Source: Legionella taurinensis
GTDB lineage: Bacteria; Pseudomonadota; Gammaproteobacteria; Legionellales; Legionellaceae
Reading direction: 5' to 3'
Assembly (NCBI RefSeq): GCF_900452865.1
Contig: NZ_UGOZ01000001.1
Span: forward strand, 744,001 to 808,000
DNA length: 64,000 nt
The first letter of the stretch is position 1. The number at the start of each line of letters is the position of its first letter. Below are positions 133 through 31,160 of the stretch, one piece after another. Both the position numbers and the translations under genes were made by a program. The notes under the pieces are model-generated. The model did no database searches. It was not told the DNA's origin and worked only from the letters and a program-made list of their open reading frames with translations.

Positions 133-2340
133 TCACAATTTTAATGGATTTCTCATCTTTGTCATGGGCTTATTTTTGGGGGATAGGTCAATGACAGGTT
201 CTACCGCTTTCCAGCCCTCCGCCACAAGATTTTTTGCAGTTTGAACGCAATGATCAATGACGCCTATTTCATTCAGCAAAACGACCACCTGATTCAACGC
301 CTCTCTTTTTTTATGAATTAAACTCTCATAGAGCCACCGCCGCTGAGACGCGTCTAATTGCGTGATGGCAAGAGCAATCGGTATGGTAATTTTCCCAGAC
401 ATGACATCTTCTTCCAGGGCGCGCGCATCGCCGCGGTAAGCCCTCACATCATCCATGTATTGGTAGGCTAAACCTACATTCAGTGCATAATGACCCACTT
501 GGGTCACTTGTTCCTCTGACGCATGCCCCAAAATAGCACCGATTTCCGCCAATGATTTGATATTGAGCCCCGTTTTTAAATTGTGCGTAGCCTCGATTGC
601 CTTTAATAAGTCGGTATTATCACCCTGATCAACAGCCTGGAGCAGCAGATCCTGCATACCGGCTATGTCTGCACATTGACCCACAATAGACGAAACAGCG
701 GTATCAAAATAAATTTTATAAATTTTTAACAGTTGCTCTGGGGTTAAGTTCGTTGTGTTCATAAGGCGATTGAAAAGAAAATACCCCAATAACCCCCCAT
801 TGATGGCTCTGTCTATCCCGTATAATTCATGAACCGTTGGTTTACCACGCCTTAATTTGGAATTATCCTGAATGTCATCAAAAATCAGCGTGGAAGACTG
901 CAGTATTTCTGCGATTACTGGCCACTCCCGGCACTGCTCAGAGTTACCACCTACTGCATTGATCACCACAAGACAAAAGAAAGAGCGCCAGCCTTTGCCT
1001 TTACGGAGTAGCATGTCGCGCAAAGGATTGACCCCCGCATCGTAAATTTTAACAGCAGACACATTGTGAATAATTTGTTGCAACTGTTCATCTTTAACCA
1101 AGGTCATCCCGAGATCGCTTGCCTGTGCGGGTAAATAGTAACGGTTAATCTCGTTCAAGACTAATCCCGCCATCTCCTCCATCAACCGGGTCTTACTTCG
1201 GAGAATTTTTTCGTTGTTTCCATAAATCTCAACAAATCCCACTCCCTCGGTCTCTTTCATGTTCTCTCGGTAACGAATGTTGATAACACCCTCGTAAAAA
1301 GCGAACGCAGTGAGGATTGTGATCACCTCCTGGTTATCAATCAAGGCTTCAATATACAATTCTGCATCGCACTCATCGAGTTTGATTTGCCATTTCACAG
1401 GATAGGTATTTAACGTGCGGTTACTCTGCCAGGTATCGAGCACTTGAATTGAAAAATGGGTATACGTTTTATAATTACCTACCTCGTCAATCACTTTAGC
1501 AATGGATTCAACGACCTCTGCTGTTTCTTTATCAAACACTTGATAAATGGAAAGTTGACGACCATCCTCCAGTTGAATGGAAAACCATATCCAACCTTTG
1601 TCTCCGATGGCTTTAGTGGATTTTTTATTATTAAGACTGAATTCATGATCGTACCAGCCCATGCCTTCAATTTCCTTATTATTTAACCTCCCCTTGACTG
1701 AGCCGTGGGGGATAAAATAATAAAACATCTGATCAACATTGTCATAATCACCCAATAAAGCGATACCCTCTTGACCATGCCGAATCGTTTTTTTATCCAT
1801 GCAAAACTCTAAATAGAGCACCTGCGAGTCATGATTAATTTCAATGCAATACAAACCGTCTTTTTTAAAAAAACTGGATTCACCAAAGTGTGCGGCAAAA
1901 TTTTCTTCATTCACTTCAAAGTCAATAGGCATAGACACATCAGGATAAATTTCTCTATTTTGCTCCATCATATCCGCAAGGTAATCCAACAGTTCATTTT
2001 TTCCTGTGCTTTCTCTGATTTTTTTGCTGTACCGTTTGGGTATTTCTTCATCGCAAATCGCCCAGTGCTGATGAGTTTTAGTTTCATGGTCAACCAGAAC
2101 GTAAATAATAAACAGGTTGTCATCGAGTGAATTTTGCGCTTTGACTTTGAAAAAACTAAAGAAAAAACTGTATTTTTTCAAACTTACTTTTTCATGAAAG
2201 TGGGTATTGAAATACCACCATTCAATTTTGGAGGGGTGAGGTAGATCCTGGATCCTTAAGTCAATTTCCTTATCAAAATAAGGAATATTGTTTTCCTGAC
2301 AACACTGAACAAATGCCTTGTTTCCTCTCATCATGTTCAT
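133..2340 (-). CDS. CrtC/AttH lipocalin-like domain fused to polyprenyl (GGPP-type) synthase
   Basis: This is a two-domain protein of about 735 residues. Residues ~30-390 resemble the carotenoid hydratase CrtC / kievitone hydratase family, with an EWWYFNTHF opening, a GMGWYDHEFS box and a WIWFSIQLEDG strand. Members of that family add water to, or protonate, prenyl double bonds. Residues ~430-735 are an all-helical trans-prenyl synthase with both aspartate-rich motifs: DDIQD near residue 488 (followed by KLRRGKPTVHELYG) and DDVRAYRGD near 630, then GKITIPIAL. The synthase half should make a C15-C20 diphosphate, and the first half may hydrate or cyclise it; that is inference. The ATG at 2340 is preferred over a TTG at 2346 because AAGG sits 6 bases upstream. 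The stop lies 16 bases before an IS3 OrfA start, so the last residues may be IS-derived. Confidence 0.8.
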   Translation of the reverse strand: MNMMRGNKAFVQCCQENNIPYFDKEIDLRIQDLPHPSKIEWWYFNTHFHEKVSLKKYSFFFSFFKVKAQNSLDDNLFIIYVLVDHETKTHQHWAICDEEIPKRYSKKIRESTGKNELLDYLADMMEQNREIYPDVSMPIDFEVNEENFAAHFGESSFFKKDGLYCIEINHDSQVLYLEFCMDKKTIRHGQEGIALLGDYDNVDQMFYYFIPHGSVKGRLNNKEIEGMGWYDHEFSLNNKKSTKAIGDKGWIWFSIQLEDGRQLSIYQVFDKETAEVVESIAKVIDEVGNYKTYTHFSIQVLDTWQSNRTLNTYPVKWQIKLDECDAELYIEALIDNQEVITILTAFAFYEGVINIRYRENMKETEGVGFVEIYGNNEKILRSKTRLMEEMAGLVLNEINRYYLPAQASDLGMTLVKDEQLQQIIHNVSAVKIYDAGVNPLRDMLLRKGKGWRSFFCLVVINAVGGNSEQCREWPVIAEILQSSTLIFDDIQDNSKLRRGKPTVHELYGIDRAINGGLLGYFLFNRLMNTTNLTPEQLLKIYKIYFDTAVSSIVGQCADIAGMQDLLLQAVDQGDNTDLLKAIEATHNLKTGLNIKSLAEIGAILGHASEEQVTQVGHYALNVGLAYQYMDDVRAYRGDARALEEDVMSGKITIPIALAITQLDASQRRWLYESLIHKKREALNQVVVLLNEIGVIDHCVQTAKNLVAEGWKAVEPVIDLSPKNKPMTKMRNPLKL

Positions 2341-3055
2341 TAACAACCTTATTTTGAAGAAAAATCAATAACTCAAATGGTTTACTGAATAATCTTTTAT
2401 TTTTTGTTTAAATTTTATTCACACATGATTTTAAGTGTAGCTTATCCTTTCAATGTTCGCCAATGCATGACATCTTTCTTTTCGTTGGCCATCCTCGGGC
2501 TTTCTATTCCTCCCAACCGTCTAACATAATCTTTCCGCCAGGCGATCATTGTCTTGGGATGTGTGCACGGCCCTCTTTATTATCACAACCTGCTGAAATT
2601 AAACATAAACCCGTATTTGTATTAGTTAAAATTTCCACCTATGGCTGCTCCAGCAGTTGGTGATTGAACAGCATCATCCCTTCCTGGTGGGAGGGATTTT
2701 TTATGCTTCACATAAATCCGACAACACCTCGGAGCGAATTTCTCTGAATCGATTGTACTCATCGACAAACACCACGGTTGGCTAAAGGAGTCGAAGTTAA
2801 CTAAGATTCCAAAATATAAACACTCAGCATTATGTGTGAGAAACAACCTATGATTTTGACAGGGAATGGGGGTACGTATACACCAGGCCAAGAAGAGGTT
2901 TAGGCGTAATGTAAACCGTCCAAATTTCCGAACATTATTAATCAACTCGTGTTTCATTCGGATTTGTAACTAATTCGAATAATTTGAAAATTGCCTGTCA
3001 GTAATCTAGGTGTTGATAACAGTGGTCGATTATTTAAATCGAAAAAATTTGAAGA
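2341..3055. other. 715-base gap between terpenoid genes
   Basis: No convincing intact gene is present. The two longest open frames (about 66 and 111 codons) have poor composition and no family signal. A minus-strand stretch near 2700-2785 reads like the tail of a protein (VVFVDEYNRFREIRSEVL) with stops just upstream, so it may be a relic. A rho-independent terminator for the plus strand lies at 2676-2702. The gap separates the fusion gene from the methyltransferase-like gene, so they may be transcribed separately. Confidence 0.5.
2676..2702 (+). terminator. Rho-independent terminator
   Basis: A 9-base-pair stem (ATCCCTTCC / GGGAGGGAT, one T-G pair) with a TGGT loop is followed directly by six Ts. 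It faces the plus strand although no plus-strand gene precedes it, so it may end an unrecognised small RNA or be left over from a lost gene. Confidence 0.65.
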
Positions 3056-4162
3056 CTAGGCTTCAGTAATTTTTAATGCCTGTGTCAATTCACTGAATAC
3101 TTCCGCTGGAATATTGCCTTTATGCGTTAAAATAAGCTTTTCCAAAATGGTTTTGACCGTTCTTTTGTCAACAACAAATTCTGAAACGATTGGATGAAAC
3201 AACGCAAGATCAACTTCCATCATTCGTTTAGCAATCCCTTTCATTTGAAAAATCTCATCTTTTGAAGGAGCTGGGATTGCCTTTATCATTTCTGAAAGTT
3301 TTTGCCATCTGGCCTTACCATTTGCATCTTGCTTAAGCCATGCTCTACCATAACTAGCGAGTAGATTCCAGTAACTGGCAAGTACACTCCGGAATCGATG
3401 AGGTACTCCAAATTCACGATATAAGCCTAGTAAATTCCCTGGGTTTGCAGCCTTTAGCGCTTCTTTTGCATTCACTCCATCTACAGCTGTATCATTTCCT
3501 TTGTAGTAGTCAATATTTATAATTCTCGCACCAAATTTTCCGGCAATCATTTGTAAAGCAAGAAATTTTGTAAAGTTCTGAAAATCGGTAGAACCCGCAT
3601 TTATTATTAAGTCTGCCTTACCATTCACTAAACCTGCCACAACGTCGGGTAACTCATCATATCTTGCATTGTAGGCTTTAGCCCGTTTAGAAAGTAATCG
3701 TTTATCTATAGTTGCTGCAGCTTTTTCAGCCAAAGGCGGATAAATTTCTACAAGTACCGCACTTGTTTGGCTTCTGTTACTTACTATTTCAAGTGTAATC
3801 TGACCTTCTCCACTACCCATTTCATAGATTAAAACGGGTTCATTTTTTCCCCTGGTTGCAATTATTTCTTCAACTATTGTATTAATAACTCTACCAAATA
3901 GTGCTTTATTTGGACTTGTCTCACCTCCCCAATCATAAGCTAATGCCATCGTTTCAATTTGTTCAGGACTCATTTTTGGAGATGGAATATAGTTTAGGAT
4001 TTCCGTGATGAGTTGCTGCATTAATTTAACACAATCAGCCTGCTGATCTAATTTATCAGCATCATTTAACTGTTGAATAAGTTGTTGTAATTTTTGTTTA
4101 TTTTCTAACAAATGATCAGCTAATTCGGCGCTCTGGCCATCTGGCGGTTGTTGTACATTCAT
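3056..4162 (-). CDS. SAM-dependent methyltransferase-like protein
   Basis: The product is 368 residues. After a helical, glutamine-rich N-terminus (~1-75), a Rossmann-type methyltransferase core begins near residue 108 with LIYEMGSGEGQITLEI, which fits motif I (hydrophobic-E-x-G-S-G-x-G). An acidic residue at the end of the next strand (VLVEIYPP) fits motif II. A later IINAGSTDFQNF stretch sits where motif IV would be. No standard substrate-specific motif was recognised. It lies between the Rv3378c-like gene and the prenyl synthase fusion on the same strand, so a tailoring role on a terpenoid is a reasonable inference. The family assignment is by motif only and could be a degenerate, non-catalytic fold. 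Confidence 0.55.
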   Translation of the reverse strand: MNVQQPPDGQSAELADHLLENKQKLQQLIQQLNDADKLDQQADCVKLMQQLITEILNYIPSPKMSPEQIETMALAYDWGGETSPNKALFGRVINTIVEEIIATRGKNEPVLIYEMGSGEGQITLEIVSNRSQTSAVLVEIYPPLAEKAAATIDKRLLSKRAKAYNARYDELPDVVAGLVNGKADLIINAGSTDFQNFTKFLALQMIAGKFGARIINIDYYKGNDTAVDGVNAKEALKAANPGNLLGLYREFGVPHRFRSVLASYWNLLASYGRAWLKQDANGKARWQKLSEMIKAIPAPSKDEIFQMKGIAKRMMEVDLALFHPIVSEFVVDKRTVKTILEKLILTHKGNIPAEVFSELTQALKITEA

Positions 4163-4401
4163 ACACTTGAATAGTTAATATAACCTTTCAAAAGTGTGGG
4201 TCTTTGGAGAGTTATTGTCAAATTTGGGGGCACAGCTTAAGTGGCATTCTTTTTTGAGCTGCCTGCTCCCATACCTTACTTTTATTCATTTCCACCTAAG
4301 ACAGCCGGACCAAACGAATCATCAATTACAATCAGCCAATGGTGCCGTTTTAATGGAAATCCCATCATTTTATGGTCTTGTTTTTTAGGGGGGAGAGGTG
4401 A

Positions 4402-5364
4402 CTATTTAGTCAGCCCAAGAATAGAATCGAAATCATCAATGAGCTCTTGCATCGCCACAAAGGCTGTTGCCATATTTTGTGAAGAGAGGCTCTGGGTTCT
4501 GTAATCCATCTCATGTGATACGGATTGTTTCGGCGCAATCAGATCTTCGATAATACGTTTTAATGCCCCTCGCTTCATATGAATAGGGGAATAGGGAGTG
4601 TAGAAAAATTTCATGTTGATGCCACTTGAAAACAAGGTTGGCATGGAGAGATAGGCCTTGCAGGACCCTTTGGCATTGGTCGATAAGGTAAAATGGGGAG
4701 GTGGTAATTCAAAACCATAGATAGCTCGAATAAAATAGCGATACAAGGTGTTGTTCACTTTATTAAAATCAGTCTCCACTTCAGAGCGTAATTGGTTATC
4801 GAGGTGTTCGCGGTCTGATGCCGACATGGCTTGGAAACGATGCCAAAGGGAATATAAAGGAATAGGGGAGATTTCAAAAATCAATTTTCGATTACCAGCG
4901 TTGTAAGGCCAGGTTTGCATAAAATCAATTAAACGTTGCCCATATTGATGTAGTACTGAAGTCGAATTGCTATCCATTATGGCCTCCAGGCCAACAAAAT
5001 AAGGATCAATTTGCATTTTTTTATAAGCGTCTTGCAAGGGTTGGCTAATGTAGGTCAAATAATAACGGGTCATCGTCTGGATGTATTCTGGACTTCTAGT
5101 TAAGGCAAGGCCAAGGGGGGGAGCGGCATCGATGATGTTTTGGCCCCCGAGTTCAAAAAAATTGAGAAGCAATTGACAATACGAGATAAACGTTTTTTCA
5201 GCATAATCGGCAAAATCGATTTTACCTGGGTTTTTGTTGTGCCTATTATACGCCAGTATGTAGGCTGAACGGGTTCCTCCTGGGCTGATTACTCCCGTTA
5301 ATCCTTCAGGAAAATGAGACCTCACGCGGTTTGCAAAGTCAGTCTCATCTGTTTTGTTACTCAT
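4402..5364 (-). CDS. Tuberculosinol synthase (Rv3378c)-like, cis-prenyltransferase-fold terpene synthase
   Basis: The product is 320 residues. From memory of Mycobacterium tuberculosis Rv3378c, several blocks line up in order: VISPGGTRSAYILAYN against its FPFDGTRRW region, a long helical section (YAEKTFISYCQLLLNFFELGG), and a C-terminal PTLFSSGINMKFFYTPYS block against PLLSSGKTSLYFTVAPS, followed by ALKRIIEDLI. Rv3378c uses a (Z)-prenyl synthase fold to convert tuberculosinyl diphosphate to tuberculosinol and 1-tuberculosinyladenosine. The aspartate of the DGTRRW motif is glycine here (PGGTR, residues 28-32), so chemistry or substrate may differ. The start is well supported by GAGGAG 7 bases before the ATG. 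It is the first of three same-strand genes with prenyl-diphosphate links. An unrelated function cannot be excluded. Confidence 0.6.
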   Translation of the reverse strand: MSNKTDETDFANRVRSHFPEGLTGVISPGGTRSAYILAYNRHNKNPGKIDFADYAEKTFISYCQLLLNFFELGGQNIIDAAPPLGLALTRSPEYIQTMTRYYLTYISQPLQDAYKKMQIDPYFVGLEAIMDSNSTSVLHQYGQRLIDFMQTWPYNAGNRKLIFEISPIPLYSLWHRFQAMSASDREHLDNQLRSEVETDFNKVNNTLYRYFIRAIYGFELPPPHFTLSTNAKGSCKAYLSMPTLFSSGINMKFFYTPYSPIHMKRGALKRIIEDLIAPKQSVSHEMDYRTQSLSSQNMATAFVAMQELIDDFDSILGLTK

Positions 5365-5648: not shown

Positions 5649-6089
5649 ATACTTAAAACCATTCTCTTTGAGCAGGATACCTTTATCGAAGATGATCTAA
5701 GGCAGTGGTACCTTAAATACGGTGAAACAATAAATCAGCCAATTACTCAACAGACAGGCCGTTTCTTTAAACCTCATGAGACAAGCTCCCATGCCCTGGT
5801 GATAAAACTCTGTAAGGATTTTGGCTTTGACGAGAAGCGAGTAATGAATAAGCCTGAGAAGAATTATTCTGCCGGGAAAGAGGAGATGGCTGCGGCACTA
5901 CCGTGCTAAGCCGGGGTTCGGCACACAGACCGAATCACCGGGGTATGGCGGTCTTGAGGCAGCTCTGAAAACGGGAGGTTAGCACGGGTGATTGGTAACG
6001 ACGCGCAGTTTGATGAATATCACTTCATGACCAACCTCAACAATCAGATTGGCTATTCGAAACACATGAATGTGATCAAGTTGGCTTAA
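5649..6089 (+). pseudogene. Decayed gene relic in two frames
   Basis: Three protein-like stretches follow one another but are broken by frameshifts and stops. The first, 5649-5909, includes FEQDTFIEDDLRQWYLKYGE and ends in TAA. A second in another frame ends at 5982 (WLRHYRAKPGFGTQTESP...). A third in the first frame runs 5988-6089 (NDAQFDEYHFMTNLNNQIGY). Composition and order suggest one ancestral gene, perhaps from a plasmid or integrative element, but no family was recognised. It occupies most of the gap between the terpenoid genes and the VIT1-type transporter; 5365-5648 holds nothing clear beyond the upstream region of the minus-strand gene. Confidence 0.45.
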
Positions 6090-23369: not shown

Positions 23370-24929
23370 TTAATGGTTAACGGGCGAGTTACCGGGTTGC
23401 TTAACTTCATCCGATGAAGAAGTCGGTTTTACCTCATGAAATAAACCGACTTTACTGAGAGAACTTGCCACTTTCGCCTCCGCCTCAAGGACCTGAGCCA
23501 CGACTTCCTTAAGTCGCAGGGTCATCTTTTGAATATCGCTAAACCCGATGTAGCCGTAATGGGCCGTGATACGAATATTATTGGGGGGTCTGGTGTCCAC
23601 TTCAAACTGACCCAGCGAGCTTGGTTTTTTCAATTCCTCTTCCACAAGGCTGACATTTTTAAGTCCCTTAATGCGAAATACAATGGTAGCCCCTCGCTCT
23701 TCGGGCTGTTCAGGGGTGATCAGTTGAATCGTATCCCCCAAATGCTTCTTGAGAAGCGCGAGCAGGTAGAGGGTGAGGCATTCCGACTTGGCCATTAATT
23801 TATCCCACCCAATGGCAGACATGGTTTTGACATAGGTTTGAATAGGGGCCAAGGTGACAGGAGACGCATTGCTTGTCCGAAAAGCCTTAGCCCCCTTTGT
23901 TGCCATGATGGCCGGTGTGAAGCCGTTAATACAGCTAAACACTTTTCCGGACTCAGCGGCTTTCCAGCCCTGGATTGGAGGATACGCATTGAGGTCCGTG
24001 TTTTGGTTAACATAAATACCAAAAGGACTGCCGGCCGTGCCGCTGCAATGTTTATAACTACAGCCTACAGCATAAGTGACTATCTCAAGTTTTTTAAGGT
24101 CAATGGAGCGATTGCCTGCGGTGTGGGCTAAATCAAGGCCCACGATAATGTGGTTTTCTTCGATGGTCTTTTTCAGTTCCGCTAAAATAGCGGCAAGATT
24201 AAGACGCTGTCCTGTATTAAAGACCAGATCCGATAAGTGCAATACCTGGATTTCATGAGCGTGTTGCTTTACAAAATCAATAATGGCTTGTGAACTGTAC
24301 AATCCATTTTCATCCGCTGCCAATTTTAATGTGAGTGCATCCGGAGTGGGAGCCTGATTATCCTGAAACAATTCAAAATTTTTTGCAGTTTGTATTTGCC
24401 GTTTAATGACGGAATGAACAACAGCCTGATCAGAAAAAAATTCGGTTGCCAGATGGCAGATTTTTGTTTTTCCTGTTTTCCAGTCTTTTAAGGTGGGCTT
24501 GTAAAACGTGTCCAGCAGATTGCCTAAATTGGTGGATAATCCTGCCTGGGTAAAGACAAACTCGCAGGGATCGTTAAAACCCAACAGCTTTTGCATGGCT
24601 AAAATGGATTCCGGGTCTTCATCGCAATCAAACCAATTACCCCCAATGGATGCGGTGTCAGGAAAATGGCCTGAGTGAAGTTGTTCACGCTGCAATTTTA
24701 AAATGGCTTCGATGGCATGGATAGCCGGTACAAATACCGGTCCTAAGGAGTGACCGGCAAAAGGCGTGATTGGCCCTAAATCAAATAACTTGTTTAAATT
24801 AAGAGGATCGTTCTTGTCCAGCTCTGACGCAAACGTTGGGCTTAAGGCGTTTTCTTCTGTTTTAAGCAGGTCTTCAAACGCTTTCGGGTCAGAGGTTAAC
24901 AATCGCTTTATTTCCATACTGGATAACAT
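23370..24929 (-). CDS. kynU: Kynureninase-family PLP enzyme
   Basis: The product is 519 residues. Kynureninase features run in order: FAGHSLGP (family: GNSLG), a PLP phosphate-binding region FVFTQAGLSTNL, GLDLAHTAGN carrying the Asp that contacts the PLP nitrogen, and CSYKHCSG with the Schiff-base lysine near residue 293. These enzymes split kynurenine to anthranilate and alanine. The C-terminal ~40 residues are an extra charged tail, which makes the protein longer than the usual ~415-465. No tryptophan dioxygenase or kynurenine formamidase is adjacent, so the pathway context is not visible. The ATG at 24929 has GGGAG 6 bases upstream. Confidence 0.8.
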   Translation of the reverse strand: MLSSMEIKRLLTSDPKAFEDLLKTEENALSPTFASELDKNDPLNLNKLFDLGPITPFAGHSLGPVFVPAIHAIEAILKLQREQLHSGHFPDTASIGGNWFDCDEDPESILAMQKLLGFNDPCEFVFTQAGLSTNLGNLLDTFYKPTLKDWKTGKTKICHLATEFFSDQAVVHSVIKRQIQTAKNFELFQDNQAPTPDALTLKLAADENGLYSSQAIIDFVKQHAHEIQVLHLSDLVFNTGQRLNLAAILAELKKTIEENHIIVGLDLAHTAGNRSIDLKKLEIVTYAVGCSYKHCSGTAGSPFGIYVNQNTDLNAYPPIQGWKAAESGKVFSCINGFTPAIMATKGAKAFRTSNASPVTLAPIQTYVKTMSAIGWDKLMAKSECLTLYLLALLKKHLGDTIQLITPEQPEERGATIVFRIKGLKNVSLVEEELKKPSSLGQFEVDTRPPNNIRITAHYGYIGFSDIQKMTLRLKEVVAQVLEAEAKVASSLSKVGLFHEVKPTSSSDEVKQPGNSPVNH

Positions 24930-25054
24930 CAACAGCTCCCTGGTTAATTAGCCGTCCTGAGACGGTGCCTTTGAGGCAACGAGTATGCTGCGTTCACGGT
25001 ATTAGAGCAACGCCTTATTCGTTATTTTTCTATACAGAATGCGTAGGCATTATT

Positions 25055-27350: not shown

Positions 27351-30300
27351 ATGAAGGTGAACGAGTACATTGAGCTTTATGAACAGCATAAATACGAAGG
27401 GCATTCGACCATTGATTCGCTTCTTCTCACCTTAAATACCCTAAAGCAGAACCGGGAAGACTGGATTAACCAGAATAAGCTTGGGTACTTTGGGATCGGA
27501 TTACGGTTCGACAAAAATCCTTTTTTTCAGCCGAAAGTCACACAAAAAAATATAACCATTATAGGCACGATCATTGACCAGTTAAATGCGCTCAAAGCCA
27601 GTGAGGATTACCAGCGCGAGGGAGAGACAGCCGAAACCCGTCTTAAAATGCTCAATATATTGGGAACTCAGTGTAACGAATTATCAAAAAAGGGCGAAAC
27701 CCAGCAATTATTTAATTACGTAATACAAGAAGAGGGTTCGATTGATTTTTCCATGCGGGAAAGTAGCCTGATTACACCCTCACCCGTGGATATCCTTACG
27801 GAGAAGAGGGAGCCATACGTCGATGAACAAACGTGGGTTTGCCCTTCTGTTCAAGAGCTCATTGAATCCAAAGGGATTCCGGGTAATTTGTTTGATCCCG
27901 CTGAAACGGATTTAACGCTTGAGCATGACCTTCACGAGCATGTGCAATGGGCCTACAATTATATTTATCAGTACGCCTATCCCACCTCGTACGAAGAAAC
28001 CCCCATTGCACGATTCCATCATGGCATCCAGCATGTGACCCGGGCGGCTAACTATGCGCGTGTATTTGCTAATTTGTACAGGAAATACGGTGATGAGGAA
28101 GCACAGCATTTAACCGAAAACGATATAAAGCTCATTCAAATTGCTCTGTTATTTCATGATTCGGCGCGCGAAGGAGATAACGAGGATTTATGGGACCACG
28201 AAAGTGCCATTCTGTTGTATTATTATCTCACCCGCGTTTTGCATGTGGATAGACAGACAGCAAAGCAGGTTGCTGAAGCCACTGCCAATAAGGACCCCAG
28301 TCCTGAGAAAGGCTATTTTGAACTCAATGAGGACGAAGACGGACAACTCTCCTGGCAGTTTTCTCAATTTGAAGAGGGATTGTTCCCCCCAAAAACCATT
28401 TATCAAAAAATAATTCATGACTGCGATTGCCTTGATATTATCAGGGCGAGAAACCAATACGATGCCAACTACCTTGATTTTTATAAGGAGATCGCCAGCC
28501 AGAATGAGCTGGCTTTGGAAGAAATGGCTGAACTCATTATTGAAGCCAGGGGTCTTATTCATCACCAGGGTGATTCCTATATCACCAAAGACGAGGCGAG
28601 TAAGCTTGAATATGAAAATGAAGAGGCGCATGCACGAATCATTGCAGACATGGATTCCGGCGCTTACCCTGTCCTTCAGGCCTTGCACGAGCGATTATTA
28701 TCCGTCGAAGAATTGCAAACCCTTACTCTGGTTGATCTCACGCCTTTTGATGAAACAGCGCCGATGACTGAACAAAACCTGACGGCGGCGCTCAGGGAAG
28801 GACGGATTCTGGCTCGCGGCGTTACCACGCCGAGCGCTTTGCCGAAACCCAAAGCCAATAAGCCGATCCTGCCTGACGAAACACTGGCTGAAAAAGAAAT
28901 AAGAAAATCAATGCGCGCTGATGGAATTAACACCAAAAGCAGAAAAGAGCCTCCAAACCCAAAAGACAAAAACCCACTGCGTTCTACATCCATTCTGGGG
29001 TACGGGAGCGGCGTTTATCCCGCGGCGGGCCTGTTAATTTTTAACCCCAACTTGAAGCAGATCCGGCGCGTGTCAATCGAAGATTTTGACAGCGGCCGAG
29101 GTCAAAAAGCGCATTTAGCCCATTTGCAGGAGAAAGAATACAACGAATCCCAAGAGATGGTCGGGCAGGAACTGGACGATCTTCGCCAGAAAATGAAATT
29201 GGGTTTATTTGGCAAAAAAAACCAGCAGGGTTCAAATTACGTTGAAATTTTATATGACATCGACCGGTACGACGCGATTTTCTTTACCAACGATCCAACC
29301 ATAGGCAATTACATTGCTTATGATGATTTTAATCCTGCTCACCGGTTCTCGCCATTATTGCAGGCTGTTTATTTACAGAAACAATACGAAAGGCAATACG
29401 AAGCCACACGGGCGGCCTATCGCGAACGCTACGGTGAAGAAGGTGAGGCATTGTTCCTCCAACGATTTGGCTCTGACCCACGGTTGCCCATTCATGAATA
29501 TTCCGGCTTAAACAATAGCCTGGTTCCTTGTGATGCGGCGTTATTGACAGAGGAAAACATTGTGCACATGTGGGTGGACATGTGCTCTGATTTCATGAGG
29601 GATAGCCTGCTCCATTTGGATGAGGACACGAGCCATTATGTTCATGATTCATTTTTCTATTCGTTAAACGTCGAGGACATCAAGGTGTGCAGTATGTACA
29701 AGATCAAGGTAAACACCCTCGCACAAAAAAATCAACCGGCTGATTTAAGTTACGATGAGCCTCTAAGAAAACAGGTGTCGGATGCCATTGAAAAGGCCAG
29801 AGAGAACATAGTCGCTGAATACGAACACAGCCTGTTAGAAAAACTGGGGAACAATCAAGAGTCTGCCTTATCCACAACAGGCTTTTTAGTGCTCCAATAC
29901 AGCCCGCACCTCAGGGAACAGGCTGCCGATAAAATCAAAGCGGATCTGCTTGACTTTGTTTATTCAGGAGAGTTGGATGCCTGCCAACTAGCCAGCATAA
30001 GCCTGCCGGATGTACCGATTTCGACCCTGGATATCCCTCACTGCAATGCAAAAGCAAGGAATGCCTTTTGTAAAAGTAAGCTGATAAAAGCCTTTATTTT
30101 GTGTCAACAATCAGGATTAGACAATGAAGCTCAACTGATTCGCAATAAACTGGGTGAGTGGGCCGAACAACTTCTGAGTAATAACGATTCGGGCGAATCA
30201 GCACTGAATAAACGGCTTAAGTTACGGCAGTTGATGATGTTAATGGATCCTGAAAATCCGTTATTACCGGCGATAGATGCCAGCGTGCAGGCGTTGGTTA

Positions 30301-31160
30301 GTCAACTAATCACTGAGTATGCGGGTAACAAATCCTATTTGCAATCAAGTCATCTGCTGATAAAAACCCTTCACGCGGCGGGCTACCCCAGGTCTCAGTA
30401 TCAAGACGACTTCCGTGTTGTTTTTGATAAAGTGAATGAGGTGCTCCCGGCGCTTCGTCCGTCGGACTGGACTTATTACGTCAAGGTAATCAAATTATTA
30501 AAAGAAGAGCCAGCCCCCGTGATTACCCGCTGGATCGCCGAGTATGAAGACAAGATTTACAATGGGGAGGAACTGCTGATTGCCTTTAAAAACTTAGATT
30601 TTACGTTCAACGACGAGAACCTGGAATTGTTCAACGTGCTGGTGCAAAAACTCCATTACAACATGCAACCCAGGCCTTATGTGCAGCTTTCCTATTGGTT
30701 TAAGTTAATCAAAGAATTGGAGGGACTGACAAAGAATCACCAGTTTTCAGAATCACAATTGAAAATCCTAAGCGACCGATTGGGTGAAATGGCTGGGAAG
30801 CTGATTGAGGAAGCGCAATTGACGTCGCCTTTTTACTCCTACTACTCGCAAGAACATAAAGGCTACCTTAGATTAACTTCTTATGCGGAAGAAATAAATA
30901 CCATTCTTAAAGCCAATTCGTTACCAGTCCCTGATTCCTTGATTAACGAATTCAATGCCGCATTATCCGCGCTGGATCAATTCGATTTAAACCAAATCCA
31001 ATTCAATAAAGCCCGAATTCATCTGGTCAAGGCGGTTCACAGTCAATTGCCACGGCCTGAAGAAAGGGCGCACGTGCTGGAAAAGATTGCCGATTTTATG
31101 AGTACTAAAGCGCAGGATGAAAAAGAGGCGATTAAGCCAAGTCCGGCGGCGGGTCTTTAG
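27351..31160 (+). CDS. SidE-type phosphodiesterase-domain effector candidate
   Basis: The product is 1269 residues. Residues ~190-440 contain the HD-like phosphodiesterase signature of SidE-family effectors: FHHGIQH at 222-228, LLFHDSARE with H269-D270, then a WDHES segment and a downstream IHDCDCLDIIR. In SidE and Dup proteins this domain attaches or removes phosphoribosyl-ubiquitin. A conserved middle block (~525-640) includes LRSTSILGYGSG and LLIFNPN, but I could not trace a complete R-S-ExE ADP-ribosyltransferase site. The last ~500 residues are helical. The true start may be GTG 27357, since AGGGG is 2 bases from ATG 27351 but 8 from GTG. Confidence 0.72.
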   Translation: MKVNEYIELYEQHKYEGHSTIDSLLLTLNTLKQNREDWINQNKLGYFGIGLRFDKNPFFQPKVTQKNITIIGTIIDQLNALKASEDYQREGETAETRLKMLNILGTQCNELSKKGETQQLFNYVIQEEGSIDFSMRESSLITPSPVDILTEKREPYVDEQTWVCPSVQELIESKGIPGNLFDPAETDLTLEHDLHEHVQWAYNYIYQYAYPTSYEETPIARFHHGIQHVTRAANYARVFANLYRKYGDEEAQHLTENDIKLIQIALLFHDSAREGDNEDLWDHESAILLYYYLTRVLHVDRQTAKQVAEATANKDPSPEKGYFELNEDEDGQLSWQFSQFEEGLFPPKTIYQKIIHDCDCLDIIRARNQYDANYLDFYKEIASQNELALEEMAELIIEARGLIHHQGDSYITKDEASKLEYENEEAHARIIADMDSGAYPVLQALHERLLSVEELQTLTLVDLTPFDETAPMTEQNLTAALREGRILARGVTTPSALPKPKANKPILPDETLAEKEIRKSMRADGINTKSRKEPPNPKDKNPLRSTSILGYGSGVYPAAGLLIFNPNLKQIRRVSIEDFDSGRGQKAHLAHLQEKEYNESQEMVGQELDDLRQKMKLGLFGKKNQQGSNYVEILYDIDRYDAIFFTNDPTIGNYIAYDDFNPAHRFSPLLQAVYLQKQYERQYEATRAAYRERYGEEGEALFLQRFGSDPRLPIHEYSGLNNSLVPCDAALLTEENIVHMWVDMCSDFMRDSLLHLDEDTSHYVHDSFFYSLNVEDIKVCSMYKIKVNTLAQKNQPADLSYDEPLRKQVSDAIEKARENIVAEYEHSLLEKLGNNQESALSTTGFLVLQYSPHLREQAADKIKADLLDFVYSGELDACQLASISLPDVPISTLDIPHCNAKARNAFCKSKLIKAFILCQQSGLDNEAQLIRNKLGEWAEQLLSNNDSGESALNKRLKLRQLMMLMDPENPLLPAIDASVQALVSQLITEYAGNKSYLQSSHLLIKTLHAAGYPRSQYQDDFRVVFDKVNEVLPALRPSDWTYYVKVIKLLKEEPAPVITRWIAEYEDKIYNGEELLIAFKNLDFTFNDENLELFNVLVQKLHYNMQPRPYVQLSYWFKLIKELEGLTKNHQFSESQLKILSDRLGEMAGKLIEEAQLTSPFYSYYSQEHKGYLRLTSYAEEINTILKANSLPVPDSLINEFNAALSALDQFDLNQIQFNKARIHLVKAVHSQLPRPEERAHVLEKIADFMSTKAQDEKEAIKPSPAAGL

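Follow-up and report, generated by a model that had tools for sequence, protein, structure and literature searches.

A 64,000-nucleotide stretch of the Legionella taurinensis genome (NZ_UGOZ01000001.1, positions 744,001 to 808,000; hereafter the window) carries near its start three open reading frames (ORFs), genes 1, 2 and 3, which we examined as a candidate terpenoid biosynthesis locus. A first-pass annotation had described a same-strand group composed of a trans-prenyl synthase joined to a CrtC-like domain, a methyltransferase-like protein, and a (Z)-prenyl-fold protein resembling Rv3378c of Mycobacterium tuberculosis, and all three ORFs lie where it placed them, on the minus strand. The genes and their parts are as follows.

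133..2346, minus strand: gene 1, CrtC/lipocalin–trans-prenyl diphosphate synthase fusion (737 aa; Pfam and PDB matches, and near-full-length counterparts in 4 of 11 genus genomes)
133..189, minus strand: apparently replaced C-terminal tail of gene 1, recurring at five further genome sites
286..1026, minus strand: trans-polyprenyl synthase domain (PF00348 polyprenyl_synt, aa 441-687, 2.2e-40)
1219..1602, minus strand: Lipocalin_9 second barrel (PF17186, aa 249-376, 9.8e-27)
1636..2226, minus strand: CrtC N-terminal lipocalin domain (PF07143, aa 41-237, 2.5e-12)
3056..4162, minus strand: gene 2, probable but weakly matched class I S-adenosylmethionine (SAM)-dependent methyltransferase (368 aa; sub-threshold Pfam and NCBIfam matches, motif EMGSGEG)
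4402..5364, minus strand: gene 3, Rv3378c-like terpene synthase or prenyl transferase with a predicted cis-prenyltransferase fold (320 aa; profile comparison and predicted fold)

The window's own genome (G000, 3.15-Mb) was compared with others of the genus, including those designated G004, G005 and G007; the samples comprised 11 genus genomes and 143 family genomes, and named stretches within them (L045, for example) have their own coordinates. Gene 3 is 98% identical to its orthologue in Legionella rubrilucens (NZ_LNYT01000020.1), and we take G005 to be this species. The order and strand of genes 3, 2, and 1 are identical in G007. In the window, 239 bp separate gene 3 from gene 2 and 709 bp separate gene 2 from gene 1, and promoter-like and terminator-like sites are present at about chance level (18 against 15.6, and 7 against 5.1). 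As judged by eye, positions 5650-5910 hold a C-terminal remnant of a protein whose complete gene lies upstream of gene 3 in G007 (L030:9771-11246).

Single-sequence searches with gene 3 were unusable, with one chance-level row in Pfam (Pesticin, 0.15), none in NCBIfam, and none below E 1 in the PDB, and the link to Rv3378c therefore required profiles and structure. Using hhalign, a profile of gene 3 (A3) was aligned to a profile (A4) built from two Legionella homologues, whose own matches to Rv3378c have E values of about 5e-19 and 7.6e-58, giving a score of 52.2; the maximum in 200 column shuffles was 26.8. BLASTP matches of gene 3 or of its paralogue to the nearer homologues were weak (E 0.013, 0.13, and 0.087). 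The fold predicted for gene 3 with AlphaFold2 (AF2) is that of a cis-prenyltransferase, and in a comparison by VIA-align, where a family absent from the rows is not thereby excluded, Rv3378c is the nearest solved relative and accounts for all of the top 8 rows. The two proteins are about 18% identical in the structural alignment. In the weak alignment of profile A3 to Rv3378c, Y51 and Y90 of the latter correspond to Y54 and Y94 of gene 3. Both tyrosines appear as mutants in PDB titles, and we take them to be important in the Rv3378c active site. The profile score and the predicted fold together support homology of gene 3 to the Rv3378c family, in keeping with the (Z)-prenyl fold first proposed for it, and the modelled 4402-5364 product falls inside the cis-prenyltransferase fold and not outside it.

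Gene 3 orthologues are restricted to three of the 11 genus genomes (G000, G005, and G007). In a class-level sample, profile A2 matched 2 of 369 genomes, the window genome and another with a marginal match to a 236-aa frame (9.7e-4), and in a phylum-level sample the Rv3378c homologue of G004 matched 1 of 398, again the window genome. A plasmid collection searched with gene 3 and with the G004 homologue gave no match, and no relative was present among 200 pattern stretches recovered from viral contigs with profile A4.

Gene 1 was said to join a trans-prenyl synthase to a CrtC-like domain, and this is borne out: when 133-2340 is compared with CrtC and geranylgeranyl diphosphate (GGPP) synthase, the CrtC, Lipocalin_9 and polyprenyl_synt domains all exceed their Pfam cut-offs, and the best-matching solved structures are GGPP synthases together with AttH (2ich, E 6.4e-15). 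The first aspartate-rich motif is intact (DDIQD) and reads DDIQD or DDVED in all six aligned fusions. The second (DDVRA) retains its first two aspartates and has lost the third; G004 (DDTLA) and Tolypothrix (DDVIN) likewise have an incomplete form, and Streptomyces canus a complete one (DDVID). CrtC hydrates an isolated terminal alkene, with a proposed protonation from D268 like that of squalene-hopene cyclase, and H239, W241, Y266, and D268 are described as key residues of RgCrtC (PMC4717167). Its reported terpene substrates include geranylgeraniol (4%), farnesol (17%), and geranyllinalool (25%) (PMC12402844). The likely equivalent of D268 is D233 of gene 1, within GWYDHEF, as mapped by eye in an alignment that does not contain RgCrtC itself; this position is Asp in five of the six fusions, three of which are close orthologues, and Glu in the sixth, that of S. 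canus (L055:11470-13713). At the Y266 position the fusions have, by eye, Trp or a Phe-neighboured Trp.

Near-full-length fusions are present in 4 of the 11 genus genomes (G000, G005, G007 and, at 47%, G004). Over its final 18 codons (133-189), gene 1 departs from the orthologues, and the same tail is found at five other places in the genome, so that repeated DNA resembling a mobile element seems to have taken the place of the original gene end. On the tail side there is an ORF that by eye is transposase-like (L035:8042-8860), and an inverted-repeat search for the ends of the mobile element found none. No carotenoid genes were seen adjoining gene 1, although no search was made for a carotenoid desaturase. 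Fragments of the N-terminal part of gene 1 and of gene 3 lie side by side at about 1.132 Mb of the window genome (L031:6415-6826), adjoining NUDIX and nucleoside hydrolase genes similar to the neighbours of gene 3 in G005. Judged from these fragments and their flanks, the cluster may have moved.

The description of gene 2 as methyltransferase-like stands in part. It has a motif-I-like EMGSGEG and matches methyltransferase families in Pfam, but all of these matches are below threshold (the best, PF02636, at 6.5e-4 and 19.7 bits against a cut-off of 23.3), and no PDB entry matches under E 0.16. We regard a class I SAM-dependent methyltransferase as probable, albeit from weak sequence similarity. 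The gene is found in 3 of the 143 family genomes.

Tuberculosinol synthesis requires a class II diterpene cyclase (PMC4004862). Searches for such an enzyme in the 11 genus genomes gave no match to PF13249 and a single one to PF13243, below cut-off, in G004 and not in the window genome. In G004 the cyclase consists of two overlapping ORFs in different frames, L045:5809-6606 with the motif YDTAW and L045:6575-7411 with the DADD form of DxDD. The latter matches class II cyclases, the best (2.1e-29) being 6vpt, which we take to be Rv3377c. With the G004 cyclase ORF as query, 2 of the 143 family genomes matched, namely G004 and, as a fragment, G005, and there was no match in the window genome. The two-frame cyclase is convergent with an intact gene matching Rv3378c at 7.6e-58 (L045:5809-8380, contig C23), and by sequence similarity this is the nearest to the tuberculosis pair among the DNA examined. 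In G005, the gene 3 orthologue has a C-terminal cyclase fragment (L033:4080-4286) 1.7 kb upstream, and an N-terminal fragment (L029:4878-5279, best PDB match labdadienyl diphosphate synthase, 5.2e-11) is about 3.7 kb from a decayed copy of the 31% paralogue of gene 3. Both gene-3-type loci thus have a cyclase remnant nearby in the L. rubrilucens lineage. In L. rubrilucens, gene 3 is separated from the cyclase fragment by an inosine-uridine type nucleoside hydrolase gene (PF01156, L033:2952-4007); its position is notable since Rv3378c makes an adenosine adduct, but it may be there by chance.

The 31% paralogue belongs to a second island in the window genome, at 2.676-2.686 Mb (L028:291-9490), which contains two further Rv3378c-like genes. 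Its order is an alcohol dehydrogenase gene, an Rv3378c-like gene, others, a HAD hydrolase gene (L028:5057-5713), a KefB-like transporter gene (by eye), a farnesyl diphosphate (FPP)-synthase-type gene, and the paralogue; the window has no HAD gene. G005 and G004 share the frame of this island, each with different parts decayed, and G004 has a permease-like ORF at the expected position of the paralogue. We considered whether the FPP-synthase-type gene (297 aa) encodes the housekeeping synthase and think not; there is no 297-aa copy in G007. Each of the 11 genus genomes has a 301-306-aa prenyl synthase match at another site, presumably the housekeeping enzyme.

Genes 2 and 3 differ from gene 1 in their divergence from G005, with dS of 0.013 for gene 2 and 0.017 for gene 3 compared with 0.090 for gene 1, which suggests a recent exchange between species covering window positions 3056-5364.

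The substrate of the Herpetosiphon kolavelool synthase is supplied by a class II cyclase, and we know of no CrtC fusion in the Herpetosiphon O-methylkolavelool cluster. That synthase, from Herpetosiphon aurantiacus, converts kolavenyl diphosphate to kolavelool (PMC9440906), and it and tuberculosinol synthase are the only cis-prenyltransferase-family terpene synthases named in the excerpted text of PMC8131916. A title cited in both PMC8131916 and PMC9440906 describes an O-methylated end product of the Herpetosiphon cluster, so that a methyltransferase would be in place there too. According to PMC11476799, orthologues of Rv3376, Rv3377c, or Rv3378c were at first sought in vain outside mycobacteria, and the Herpetosiphon enzyme is a known relative from outside that group. 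Among the matches listed in a search of open-licence literature, none described Rv3377c/Rv3378c-type genes in Legionella, as judged by title and start of abstract; two listed papers name both Rv3378c and Legionella, mentioning them once or twice.

In M. tuberculosis, the locus comprises a HAD gene (Rv3376), the class II cyclase, and Rv3378c (PMC11476799), and the wider operon also encodes a GGPP synthase (PMC3470408). The window resembles this arrangement in the fold and remote homology of gene 3 and in having a trans-prenyl synthase (compare Rv3383c) within the set, and G004 resembles it in its convergent cyclase gene and Rv3378c homologue. The second island is similar in composition, with a HAD gene, known by family only, an accessory prenyl synthase, and Rv3378c-like genes. 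The window genome differs in having no detected class II cyclase, a CrtC domain instead, and an additional methyltransferase-like gene, and gene 3 differs from Rv3378c in its low identity and in lacking D34. Of the likeness to the mycobacterial locus first proposed for the window, the cis-prenyltransferase fold, the homology to Rv3378c-matching proteins and the fusion hold. A tuberculosinol or tuberculosinyladenosine product is not supported, given that the window genome yielded no class II cyclase and that gene 3 is without the P-loop Asp. The terpenes made through the tuberculosis enzyme block lysosomes, and a phagosome role for the window locus would be hypothetical.

Gene 1 is related to the CrtC and AttH lipocalin family through its two lipocalin domains, the AttH match, and the retained acidic residue, and it differs in being fused to a prenyl synthase and in having other key residues that are not conserved by eye. 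Such fusions are not new to databases, as they occur with the same domain order in Tolypothrix sp. PCC 7601 and on a Streptomyces canus plasmid (27.6% identity over 96% and 27.3% over 71% of gene 1, respectively). Gene 1 is matched by 353 plasmid records, two of which, both from Tolypothrix, cover at least 80% of it in one place. The Tolypothrix plasmid protein (1509 aa, L054:9661-14190) has additional sulfotransferase and glycosyltransferase domains and is encoded among ABC exporter genes. A literature search found no paper on a CrtC–prenyl synthase fusion and no reported product.

Our leading interpretation, which we hold tentatively, is that the window contains a locus for specialised terpenoids, divergent but of the tuberculosinol/kolavelool type. 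The synthase domain of gene 1, by homology and with its intact DDxxD, would build an all-trans prenyl diphosphate, and the fused CrtC-type domain would protonate the terminal C=C of the chain and then hydrate or cyclise it, a step that would do the chemical work of Rv3377c, the class II diterpene cyclase of M. tuberculosis. Gene 3, with its predicted fold, would ionise the diphosphate and transfer the prenyl group, with water or a small molecule as the acceptor, and gene 2 may methylate the product, which would be in line with the Herpetosiphon O-methylkolavelool pathway. The ancestral locus probably had a true class II cyclase, which was not found in the window genome and of which fragments remain in L. 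rubrilucens.

Several observations weigh against this interpretation. When aligned with each of the two homologues singly, A3 scores 23.4 and 26.1 (probabilities 2.4 and 5.4), inside the shuffle range, and against the PDB it finds Rv3378c (3wqk) at E 0.42, with an endoribonuclease as the best row (0.014). The AF2 model of gene 3 has a moderate predicted local distance difference test score of 65 (37-65 over five models), and its input alignment included Rv3378c-like homologues. D34 in the P-loop of Rv3378c, which we take to be catalytic, is replaced by G29 in gene 3 (PGGTRSA), and the second Arg is missing as well. In gene 1, the equivalents of CrtC H239 and W241 are, by eye, not conserved among the six fusions, and the C-terminus appears from its sequence to have been replaced. 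The gene spacing is not operon-tight, and the dN/dS values between G000 and G005 are 0.66 for gene 3 and 0.38 for gene 1 (0.27 for gene 2), although there are few changes for genes 3 and 2. The plasmid collection from which the Tolypothrix and S. canus fusions come yielded no Rv3378c-like gene, and in G004 the fusion is present without gene 2 or a gene 3 orthologue, beside genes for a desaturase and a short-chain dehydrogenase/reductase (SDR). Gene 1 can therefore exist without genes 3 and 2, and G004 does hold its Rv3378c homologue elsewhere in the genome.

A possible, if less probable, explanation that we judge nearly as good is that the window is a decaying tuberculosinol-type island from which the cyclase has been lost, leaving gene 3 and its paralogues to act on GGPP or FPP to form linear alcohols, or to do nothing, and gene 1 with a separate role. 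The fragmentary cyclase of G005 and the two-frame version in G004, the decay of Rv3378c-like copies in both of these genomes, the splitting of gene 2 in G007, the replaced end of gene 1, and the fragments of genes 1 and 3 at a second site are all consistent with decay, but the window genome retains three full-length Rv3378c-like genes without an internal stop, and dN/dS between G000 and G007 is 0.14 for gene 3 and 0.13 for gene 1 (0.18 for the compared part of gene 2). We think it unlikely that gene 1 acts in a separate prenyl-lipid or squalene/carotenoid-like pathway, whose product is hydrated and then glycosylated, with its nearness to gene 3 being incidental. A squalene/phytoene-synthase-type gene (PF00494, above cut-off; L047:7448-8404, L048:7224-8186) has exactly the distribution of the fusion, 4 of the 11 genus genomes, and lies beside GT2-like genes and a similar second ORF (by eye), and the domains of the Tolypothrix fusion together with its exporter neighbours point in the same direction, as does the G004 fusion beside desaturase and SDR genes without a gene 3 orthologue. 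However, phylogeny confounds the co-occurrence of this gene with the fusion, as three of the four genomes are close relatives, and genes 1 and 3 are near neighbours in both G000 and G007 and have left fragments together at the second G000 site. As regards a phytoene or carotenoid pathway, NCBIfam squalene-synthase models match the PF00494-type gene only below cut-off. By far the least probable alternative is that gene 3, although related to the cis-prenyltransferases, is not catalytic or acts in another way, for instance by binding a prenyl diphosphate or as a partner subunit. Both gene 3 and the 31% paralogue have Gly at the position of the P-loop Asp, as such a role might predict, but the two nearer Legionella homologues, including the one matching Rv3378c at 7.6e-58, also lack it (Asn), and gene 3 retains the two tyrosines that were mutated in Rv3378c structures.

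Elsewhere in the window, an ORF of 1269 aa (27351-31160) has a SidE phosphodiesterase domain (PF12252, 8.8e-8) and is therefore effector-like, and an ORF at 23370-24932 has a kynureninase C-terminal domain (PF22580, 4.1e-9).

Legionella is a genus that lives inside amoebae and macrophages. The origin of the M. tuberculosis terpene-nucleoside genes is an open question, and the Rv3378c homologue convergent with a class II cyclase gene makes both origin and function comparable. That so close a relative of the tuberculosis pair is present in a sister genome was unexpected. With a distant Rv3378c relative in the window and closer versions, along with decayed pathway parts, in related genomes, tuberculosinol-like chemistry is probably not unique to mycobacteria. 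A broader scenario, which we consider rather doubtful, is that one Legionella lineage carries old, native tuberculosinol-type islands, with a prenyl synthase, a class II cyclase, a HAD gene, and several Rv3378c-like genes, forming a pool from which the mycobacterial locus could have come, and that the window is an offshoot in which the CrtC fusion replaced the alkene protonation of the cyclase. If it is true that the CrtC fusion performs the cyclase step, it would represent a lipocalin-fold entry to class-II-type terpene chemistry.

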